Source: Egibacter sp.
GTDB lineage: Bacteria; Actinomycetota; Nitriliruptoria; Euzebyales; Egibacteraceae
Reading direction: 5' to 3'
DNA: 64,000 nt
NCBI GenBank assembly: GCA_003553795.1
Contig: PWFH01000053.1
Location: 1-64,000 of the forward strand
Shown: positions 42,784 to 45,910 of the stretch, piece by piece
Position numbering within the stretch: position 1 is the first letter of the stretch
Layout of the letters: each line of letters begins with the position of its first letter
Notes under the pieces: model-generated
Told to the model about the DNA's origin: nothing
Seen by the model: only the letters and a program-made list of their open reading frames with translations
Databases searched by the model: none
Translations under genes and position numbers: made by a program

Positions 42784-44943
42784 TCACGTCCGCCCCGGGC
42801 GCCGCGTCTCGAGGGCGGCGACGACCCGCTCGAGCAACGGGTGGGCGAGGGCCTCCTCGAGCGCGAGCTCGCGGTGCCCCTCCTCCGCGTGCTCGTCGGG
42901 CACCGCGAGCGGCAGCCGCCAGTTCGGGTAGATCGTGACCGTGCCGGGCAGGTTGGGCTGGCGCCGGTCGCCGACCGCGTCGTGCAGGCTCGCGGCGACG
43001 AGGCGGGAGGGCGTCTCGGCGAGGAAGGCGTGCATCGCGACGATGAGCTCCTCGAGGGTGGGCTCCTCGCCGACGAGGCCGGCCTCGCGCAGGTGCCGGT
43101 GCATGAGCCCGCGCTCAGCGTCCTTGTGCGCCCATTCGGCGGCCGGGTCGGCGTCCTCGCCGAGCAGGCCGAGCTCGGTGCGCAGGCGGACGTCCTCGCC
43201 GGTCCACCACCCCGCCGCGGTCGGCAGGTCGTGGGTGCTCACCGAGGCCAGCGCGGTCTCCCGGTAGGCCGACGCCGGCCGCAGCCGGGAGTCGTCGGCG
43301 TCGTCGCGCTCGAAGTAGAGCACCTGCGAGCCGAGGACCTGCTGGGCGCTGAGCGTCTCGCGGACCCCGGGCTCGACGGTGCCGAGGTCCTCGCCGACGA
43401 CGACGGCGTCGGCGCGGTGCGCCTCGAGCGCGAGGATGCCGAGCATGTCCTCGGAGGGGTAGCGCACGTACGTGCCCTCCGCCGGGGTCGCCCCCTCGGG
43501 GATCCAGAAGAGGCGGAATAGCCCCATGACGTGATCGATGCGGATGCCGCCGGCGTGGCGCAGCACCGCGGCGAGCATGTCGCGGAACGGCGCGAAGCCG
43601 GTCTCGGGCAGGCGGTTGGGCAGCAGCGGCGGTTGCGCCCAGTCCTGGCCCTGCTGGTTGAAGTAGTCCGGTGGCGCCCCGACGGTGACCCCGAGGGCGA
43701 TCTCGTCCTGCAGCGCCCAGGCGTCGGCGCCGCCGGCGTCGACCCCGACGGCGAGGTCGTGGACGACCCCGAGGCGCATGCCCGCGTCCCTGGCGGCGCC
43801 CTGCGCAGCCTCGAGCTGCTCGTTGCAGAGCATCTGCAGCCACATGTGGAAGGACACGCGCTCGGCGTGACGCTCGCGGAACGCGGCGACGGCCGGGGCG
43901 TCGGGGTGCCGGAGCTCTGCGGGCCAGGTGCCGAACGGCACGCCGTGGATCTCGCCGATCGCGCAGAACGTCGCGAAGTCGCGCAGGGCGGGGCCCTGCG
44001 CGGCCGCGAAGGCCTCGAGCGCGGCGTGGCGCTCGGGCGGCAGCGCCGCGAAGGCCTCGCCGAGCGCGGCCATCTTCGCGGCCTGCACCGCGTCGCGGTC
44101 GATGCGGTGGGGGTTGGGCCGGGCCTGGGCGGCCAGCCCGGCGACCCGGTCGCGGGCCTCACCCTCGAGGGCGGCCACCTCGGGCACCTCCTCGACGCGC
44201 AGCATGAGCGGGTCGTGGAAGCGCCGACTCGAGGGGAAGTAGGGCGAGGGCTCGACCGGTGGGACCGGGGCCTGGGCGTGCAGGGGGTTGGCCACGGCGA
44301 AGTGCGCCCCCCGCTCGGCGCTCCACGTGAGCACCGTGCGGAGGTCGGCGAGGTCGCCGATGCCCCAGCTGCCCTCCCCGAGCAGCGCGTAGACCTGGAG
44401 CATCCAGCCCCAGGCGCGCGGCAGGTCCTCGGGCAGCGGCGCCGCGGGCGGGGCGACGGCGAGCAGCCCCTCGGCGGTGCCGTCGACCGCACCGTCGACC
44501 TCGAGGGTGTGGTAGCCCAGCGGCAGGTCGGTCGGCAGGTCGAGCTCGACGGCGGTGCGTGGGCCTCCGTGGACGTCGGCCGTGCCGAGGCCGGCGTCGC
44601 GGGTGGTGGCCTCGACGTCGCGCACGCCGCCGTCCTCGCGCCGCACGCGGACGGTGAGGTCGGCCCCGGGGGGCACCCGGAGGGTGACCGTGGCGGGCCG
44701 CCCGGCCCGCACCACGGTGCTCGGGGGCACGACGCGCAGCCATGGCGCGCGCCGCGCCGCGGCGAGGGCGTCGGCGGCCTCGCCGTCATCGGCGACCTCG
44801 ACACCGAGCGCGGCCAGCGCCGCGCGGATCGTCCGGCGCGAGGTCGCGTGCCAGCGGCCGTCGATGCGGTGGTAGCCCGTGGCGATGCCGTAGGCCTCGG
44901 CGAGCTCCGCGAGCGGACCTACGGCGGGGTCGTTGTCAGCGAT
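42784..44943 (-). CDS. malQ: 4-alpha-glucanotransferase (amylomaltase), apparently starting at an AUC codon
   Basis: A GH77 enzyme that transfers maltooligosaccharides in glycogen and maltose metabolism. Catalytic segments are GGIRIDHVMGLFRLFWIP (nucleophile Asp), VVGEDLGTVEP (acid/base Glu) and STHDLPTAAGWW. The first canonical start, GTG at 44730, would give 648 residues and remove a conserved N-terminal block (LAELAEAYGIATGYHR ... LAALGV) that remains in frame upstream. The frame is closed by a TGA at 44947-44949, and between that and the block no ATG, GTG or TTG exists. An ATC at 44941-44943 has AAGAAGGG 7 bases upstream and would give 719 residues, the normal length. The start is therefore tentative; the family is certain. 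Confidence 0.88.
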   Translation of the reverse strand: MADNDPAVGPLAELAEAYGIATGYHRIDGRWHATSRRTIRAALAALGVEVADDGEAADALAAARRAPWLRVVPPSTVVRAGRPATVTLRVPPGADLTVRVRREDGGVRDVEATTRDAGLGTADVHGGPRTAVELDLPTDLPLGYHTLEVDGAVDGTAEGLLAVAPPAAPLPEDLPRAWGWMLQVYALLGEGSWGIGDLADLRTVLTWSAERGAHFAVANPLHAQAPVPPVEPSPYFPSSRRFHDPLMLRVEEVPEVAALEGEARDRVAGLAAQARPNPHRIDRDAVQAAKMAALGEAFAALPPERHAALEAFAAAQGPALRDFATFCAIGEIHGVPFGTWPAELRHPDAPAVAAFRERHAERVSFHMWLQMLCNEQLEAAQGAARDAGMRLGVVHDLAVGVDAGGADAWALQDEIALGVTVGAPPDYFNQQGQDWAQPPLLPNRLPETGFAPFRDMLAAVLRHAGGIRIDHVMGLFRLFWIPEGATPAEGTYVRYPSEDMLGILALEAHRADAVVVGEDLGTVEPGVRETLSAQQVLGSQVLYFERDDADDSRLRPASAYRETALASVSTHDLPTAAGWWTGEDVRLRTELGLLGEDADPAAEWAHKDAERGLMHRHLREAGLVGEEPTLEELIVAMHAFLAETPSRLVAASLHDAVGDRRQPNLPGTVTIYPNWRLPLAVPDEHAEEGHRELALEEALAHPLLERVVAALETRRPGRT

Positions 44944-44946
44944 CGC

Positions 44947-45366
44947 TCAGCCCTTCTTCGTCGCCCAGAAGATCTCGCTGATCTCCTCGATGAGGGACAG
45001 CAACTCACGGCCCACCTCGGGGTCCATCGACTTCTTCGCGTCGCCGGCCTGCTTGATCGCGCGCCAGAAGAGGTCGTGGAGCTGGGGGTAGGACTCGACG
45101 TGCGGGGGCTTGAAGTAGTCGGTCCACAGCACCGAGAGGTGGTGCTTGACGAGCTCGGCGCGCTGCTCCTTGATGAAGATCGCGCGGTCGCGGAAGACCG
45201 CGTCGTCGGAGGCGTGGTACTTCTCGGCGCACGCCACGACCGACTCCGCCTCGATGCGCGCCTGCGCGGGGTCGTAGACGCCGCACATGAGGTCGCAGTG
45301 GGCGGAGACCTCGCGGGGGGCGGCGAGGCGGTCGGCGAGCGTGAGCAGCTTCGCGGGGATGGACAT
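44947..45366 (-). CDS. sodN: Nickel superoxide dismutase precursor
   Basis: A 139-residue precursor. A 22-residue leader is followed by the nickel hook HCDLMCGVYDP (His23, Cys24, Cys28, Tyr31), which becomes the N-terminus after cleavage, and by ARIEAESV and the four-helix bundle typical of NiSOD. The usual Pro at hook position 5 is Met27. It detoxifies superoxide as a hexamer. The ribosome-binding site GAAGGAG lies 5 bases before the ATG. The divergent neighbour is the probable maturation protease. Confidence 0.95.
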   Translation of the reverse strand: MSIPAKLLTLADRLAAPREVSAHCDLMCGVYDPAQARIEAESVVACAEKYHASDDAVFRDRAIFIKEQRAELVKHHLSVLWTDYFKPPHVESYPQLHDLFWRAIKQAGDAKKSMDPEVGRELLSLIEEISEIFWATKKG

Positions 45367-45427
45367 CGTGACTCCTTCTTGCAAGACGGTCGCAGGGAGA
45401 GGCCCCTTGCGGCCGTATGCTATCCGC

Positions 45428-45910
45428 ATGCACCTCGGCCTATGCCGCGTCCCGGGAGGTCCCCGGCGCACGGGCTCCTCCCGCTGGCGCGGCCGTGGCG
45501 TCCTCGCCGTGCTGCTCGCCGCCGTGCTCCTGCCCGCCGCGGCCTGCCGTCCCTCCCGCGTGCGCGTGCGCGGCCCGAGCATGGCACCGGCGCTCGTCGA
45601 CGGCGACCGACTGCTCGTCTGCCGTGGGTGCCACGCCTCCCGCGCGCGCCCCGGCGAGGTCGTCGTCGTCGCCCGCCCCGGCGGCGGGGAGGCGGTCAAG
45701 CGCCTCGTCGGCGGGCCGGGTGACGTCGTCGACGCCGCCGGCGGGCCGCTGCGCCTCGTGGCGGGCGAGATCGCCGTCGCCGGCGACGACCCTGCGCGGA
45801 GCACCGACAGCCGGCGCTGGGGCCCGCTGCCCGTCGGGGCACTGCGCGGACGGGCGCTCGGCGTCTACCACCCGCCCGAGCGGGTGCGCTGGGGCGCGTC
45901 GCTGCGCTGA
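45428..45910 (+). CDS. sodX: S26 signal peptidase-like protease, probable NiSOD maturation enzyme
   Basis: A 160-residue membrane protease with the Ser-Lys dyad of family S26: Ser51 in RGPSMAPAL and Lys91 in GGEAVKRLVG, after one hydrophobic helix (about 24-40) that ends in a lipobox-like LPAAAC. NiSOD needs removal of its leader to expose His1, and a small S26 protease is the usual partner gene. The ATG at 45428 lies 6 bases after a TATGCT box, so the mRNA is probably leaderless. A palindrome ATGC-TATCC-GCAT (45417-45429) covers this start. Confidence 0.86.
   Translation: MHLGLCRVPGGPRRTGSSRWRGRGVLAVLLAAVLLPAAACRPSRVRVRGPSMAPALVDGDRLLVCRGCHASRARPGEVVVVARPGGGEAVKRLVGGPGDVVDAAGGPLRLVAGEIAVAGDDPARSTDSRRWGPLPVGALRGRALGVYHPPERVRWGASLR

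Follow-up and report, generated by a model that had tools for sequence, protein, structure and literature searches.

The malQ gene of an Egibacter draft genome, which encodes a 4-alpha-glucanotransferase of family GH77, has no canonical start codon, a conclusion that we consider well established as far as bioinformatic evidence goes. Judging from the sequence, its translation probably begins at an AUC codon and is coupled to that of sodN, the gene just upstream. The two genes lie on the minus strand of the window, by which we mean the whole 64,000 nt stretch of DNA that was analysed, and the features of their junction are as follows.

44947-45366, minus strand: sodN (Ni superoxide dismutase), 139 aa (TIGR02753, E 2.6e-45; PF09055, E 3.6e-43)
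44951-44958, minus strand: AAGAAGGG, a possible weak Shine-Dalgarno sequence within the end of sodN, 7 nt from the ATC
44949-44947, minus strand: sodN stop codon (TGA), in the same frame as malQ
44941-44943, minus strand: ATC, candidate AUC start of malQ (shared near-cognate codon, start position of relatives, +3 nt spacing)
42784-44943, minus strand: malQ (4-alpha-glucanotransferase, GH77), 719 aa if the ATC is the start (PF02446, E 1.7e-112; PF21226, E 3.4e-18)
44731-44940, minus strand: malQ coding stretch without a canonical start, codons 3-72 from the sodN stop (substitution pattern, composition)
44728-44730, minus strand: GTG, codon 73, where the malQ frame first offers a canonical start; not accepted as the main start

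Codons are numbered from the sodN stop, such that GCG is codon 1, ATC is codon 2 and the GTG at 44730 is codon 73. After the sodN TGA, the malQ frame of this genome (G000; 231 contigs, 96.5% complete) reads GCG ATC GCT GAC AAC GAC CCC GCC GTA GGT CCG CTC GCG GAG CTC GCC..., and neither ATG, GTG nor TTG occurs in it from the TGA at 44949-44947 down to GTG 44730. The sequence-only reading had described 44731-44949 as free of canonical starts, and all of its coordinates check. When all start codons of NCBI table 11 are allowed, ATC among them, an ORF of 719 aa is obtained from ATC 44943.

The identity of the product is clear from its profile scores (PF02446, 377 bits against a cut-off of 25; TIGR00217, 337.6 bits against 205.65), and the translation contains GGIRIDHVMG, VVGEDLGTVEP and STHDLPT, which carry the motifs RIDH, GEDLG and THDLP that we take to be the catalytic motifs of GH77. 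There is one malQ copy per genome, G000 included, and in a distant relative (G028:C45:122009-124164) the match to the gene is split into two overlapping pieces, pointing to a frameshift or a break in the gene. The nickel-hook of SodN is HCDLMCGVY, with Met replacing the usual Pro, in five genomes (G000, G001, G010, G015 and G004; window 44947-45366, minus strand, and L002, L003, L005 and L015), and HCD[LI]PCG[VI]Y in other relatives. Divergent from sodN is a signal peptidase I-like ORF (window 45287-45910, plus strand) that passes TIGR02227 and falls below the TIGR02754 cut-off, and it is probably a SodX-type maturation protease.

One other genome from the same genus (G001) was available for comparison, and its locus is 89% identical to that of G000 across 967 bases. 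The junction in this genome is AAGAGGGGC TGA GCG ATC TCC GAC ACC GAC..., so that TGA-GCG-ATC is the same in both, and the malQ frame again reaches its first canonical start at the GTG of codon 73. The conservation of the ATC rests on these two species, in which the flanking sequence is also conserved. Between them, the substitutions in codons 3-72 fall 5/2/21 at codon positions 1/2/3, and in codons 3-20 alone they fall 1/1/7, seven of nine being at the third position. The dN/dS ratio (NG86) is 0.12 over codons 3-72, compared with 0.16 over codons 73-720 and 0.15 for sodN (dN 0.032, dS 0.205). GC content by codon position in the start-free stretch is 0.82/0.60/0.92, a coding composition that sets it apart from the openings without canonical starts in the window's other ORFs. 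When 426 kb of G000 were scanned (the window and 19 further stretches), malQ had the highest codon log-odds among the 197 long ORFs that open with 20 or more codons free of canonical starts. The runners-up in this ranking resemble antisense shadow frames, as judged by eye, and a general tolerance of near-cognate starts in G000 was set aside on these grounds. By its pattern of substitution, the stretch from codon 3 to codon 72 is under purifying selection and so appears to be translated; the claim that a conserved MalQ N-terminus is encoded before the first ATG, GTG or TTG is upheld both by the dN/dS ratio and by alignment of the family N-terminus.

Of the 104 malQ loci that match at the N-terminus, only those recorded for G000 and G001 offer no canonical start after the preceding in-frame stop and ahead of the conserved LAxLA motif, and in four others the canonical start is found only more than 40 codons upstream. 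Many family members, and the next family as well, keep the order sodN-malQ; malQ there begins with ATG, GTG or TTG, and its distance and frame vary (offsets of 0, 1 and 2 relative to sodN across the family and order). MalQ placed at the ATC begins where relatives with ATG or GTG starts begin and has the same N-terminal length. The family length attributed to an ATC start agrees with the N-termini of relatives and with the solved MalQ structure 5b68 (presumably the C. glutamicum enzyme), which matches query residues 12-683, with query residue 12 aligned to its residue 7. G010, the closest relative beyond the genus, has about 33 additional bases, GTG GTG among them, between the sodN stop and the body of malQ, and since these are missing from the genus of G000 and G001, the old start appears to have been deleted. 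The sequences suggest that a deletion of about 33 nt probably removed the original malQ start in the ancestor of this genus, the alternative being an insertion in G010. In several relatives (L009, L011, L013, L017 and L020-L023), a GC-rich inverted repeat resembling a terminator, noted by eye, separates sodN from malQ; the genus of G000 and G001 lacks it. At the junction in another genome, G008 (L004 / L033), the sequence is GGGGAACTGATCACC, with CTG or ATC overlapping the sodN TGA, and the sole canonical start close by in the upstream direction is a GTG within sodN, at a distance of 58 nt; this is a possible second case of a near-cognate malQ start.

Within codons 1-20, ATC is the only near-cognate of ATG common to G000 and G001, and in both genomes it lies +3 nt from the sodN stop. 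It is preceded, at a suitable distance, by a candidate Shine-Dalgarno sequence, AAGAAGGG in G000 and AAGAGGGG in G001, with duplex energies of -6.4 and -10.2 kcal/mol, respectively. About 19% of internal malQ codons score equally well in G000 and 4.6% in G001; the energy lends weak support to the ATC in G001 only, and in G000 it is not statistically striking. The proposed pairing of ATC 44943-44941 with AAGAAGGG 7 nt before it was correct in position, but its Shine-Dalgarno part is weak. Folding of the junction RNA gave nothing beyond shuffled sequences (z 1.13 and 0.35). On the evidence of the sequences, AUC at 44943-44941 is likely to be the malQ start. The earlier proposal of an AUC start stands insofar as ATC is the best candidate codon and is kept in G001; its use is deduced, and readthrough of the sodN TGA retains a share of the probability.

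Four other explanations may be considered. An error of sequencing or assembly (C for G, or an indel) might account for the missing start, and both assemblies are drafts, but the same codon and the same gap in canonical starts recur in a genome with 89% DNA identity, a value that marks G000 and G001 as separate species and makes a shared random error not credible. Unless both assemblies share one error, this reading is already refuted, and it deserves almost no credence; G001 carries ATC at the position where ATG or GTG in relatives had been named as a refutation, and base error is excluded for practical purposes. Alternatively, MalQ could start at GTG 44730 with the preceding stretch untranslated. 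This GTG is conserved in G001, and the PF21226 (Pfam MalQ_N) match begins at residue 73, exactly at the GTG, so a shorter enzyme could fold. Nevertheless, the low dN/dS and third-position bias extend across the 70 codons ahead of it, the start would remove a conserved N-terminal region that aligns with relatives and 5b68, and its Shine-Dalgarno score is weak (-1.5 kcal/mol). A GTG start is very unlikely, and as a possible refutation of the AUC it is contradicted by the purifying selection on those codons.

A start elsewhere in the interval (at the GCG of codon 1, within codons 3-11, or at the CTG/CTC of codon 12), or an out-of-frame start followed by a frameshift, is also quite unlikely. No further near-cognate is shared within codons 1-20, codon 12 being CTG in G001 only and CTC in G000, and the canonical starts that lie out of frame close to the junction differ between the two genomes (GTG at -59 in G000 and at -113 in G001). 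The main rival is readthrough, in which a few ribosomes would decode the sodN TGA and continue in frame to give a SodN-MalQ fusion with no separate malQ start. It requires no start codon, sodN may be highly expressed, and in both G000 and G001 the two genes share one frame with only the TGA between them. However, sodN and malQ are in different frames in most relatives, so that frame continuity across the stop is not conserved, which argues against a conserved fusion and not against a recent one. SodN is already complete at its usual C-terminus (the TIGR02753 match reaches 144/145), and the variable linker lies only GCG-ATC past the sodN stop, leaving no conserved linker to compare. TGA followed by G is not known to be a leaky context. 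Overall, readthrough seems unlikely, if less so than the other alternatives.

Under the preferred reading, an AUC start coupled to sodN, the ancestral malQ leader and its own start would have disappeared when the ancestor of the genus lost about 33 nt, after which AUC would have been the one near-cognate codon suitably placed, with malQ kept in use since. Ribosomes or 30S subunits that end sodN at the TGA (44949-44947) would re-initiate 3 nt downstream, probably aided by the purine-rich end of sodN, and the normal initiator tRNA would decode AUC 44943-44941 as formyl-Met, giving a predicted N-terminus of (M)ADNDPAVGPLAELAEAYGIATGYHR. The initiator tRNA is ordinary, with a CAU anticodon; a special initiator tRNA was looked for with a free-anticodon pattern (exact stem and arm), and only CAU copies were found in G000 and G001. 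Reinitiation requires overlaps or very short gaps and falls steeply with distance (PMC10666635), and the gap at this junction is very short, +3 nt in both genomes. The same stop-to-start spacing is present in the coupled pairs galT-galK and rplK-rplA (PMC12548453). In E. coli, AUU, a codon comparable to AUC, is put at about 0.3% of AUG (PMC10666635), and IF3 still acts in reinitiation, where it disfavours codons such as AUU and AUC (PMC2268962), so strong MalQ expression is not expected. The output of MalQ would presumably be low and proportional to sodN translation.

Starts at AUN codons and translational coupling are each already known, and malQ is unusual as an enzyme gene at a probably coupled junction. 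Well-supported bacterial AUC starts are few and are best known from infC regulation. A literature search found no reports of AUC/ATC starts for malQ, and one source (PMC4648390) was set aside because it concerns eukaryotic (oocyte) expression. We lean slightly towards a history in which an enzyme gene, its start and leader deleted, has been maintained, at a minimum since two species diverged, by AUC reinitiation directly after the upstream stop. If true, ribosomes that have just terminated would use near-cognate codons in nature efficiently enough to let such genes survive, and gene finders limited to ATG, GTG and TTG would misplace their starts. Standard annotation would trim about 70 conserved residues from MalQ. 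In malQ, a metabolic gene, both the comparison with a second species and the selection test rule out a canonical start, and the stop lies at coupling-type spacing. The sodN-malQ pair offers a defined junction for asking whether reinitiating ribosomes relax start-codon stringency.

Among known systems, the infC (IF3) genes with AUU or AUC starts are, as malQ would be, native bacterial genes with an AUN start other than AUG, but infC uses its start codon for IF3 feedback, whereas malQ is an enzyme gene with a weak Shine-Dalgarno sequence. A link to infC-type autoregulation, raised by the sequence-only reading, is not supported, since the infC gene of G000 has an ATG start preceded by an AGGGAGG-like Shine-Dalgarno sequence and MalQ is a metabolic enzyme; together with the ordinary CAU initiator tRNA, the ATG start of infC indicates neither a special tRNA nor infC-like autoregulation. 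A family member (G002) carries an infC paralogue (L123; G002:C487:6185-6394 and upstream) in which no ATG, GTG or TTG separates the preceding stop from the IF3_N domain; ATC there follows a strong Shine-Dalgarno sequence (AAGGAGG) at normal distance, and by its sequence the paralogue looks like an AUC-start infC. The solved MalQ 5b68 belongs to the same enzyme family and has the same N-terminal architecture, and is compared as a protein alone. The pairs galT-galK and rplK-rplA have canonical starts, unlike the proposed AUC of malQ. They are co-directed with a gap of exactly 3 nt, as are sodN and malQ (PMC12548453). Comparable, too, are rare short-distance gene pairs with ATT starts (ATTGA, ATTAG and ATTAA; PMC10666635), where, as in malQ, rare non-canonical starts have been proposed at stop/start junctions; those pairs may be annotation errors, whereas for malQ a second species and a test of selection both back the absence of a canonical start.
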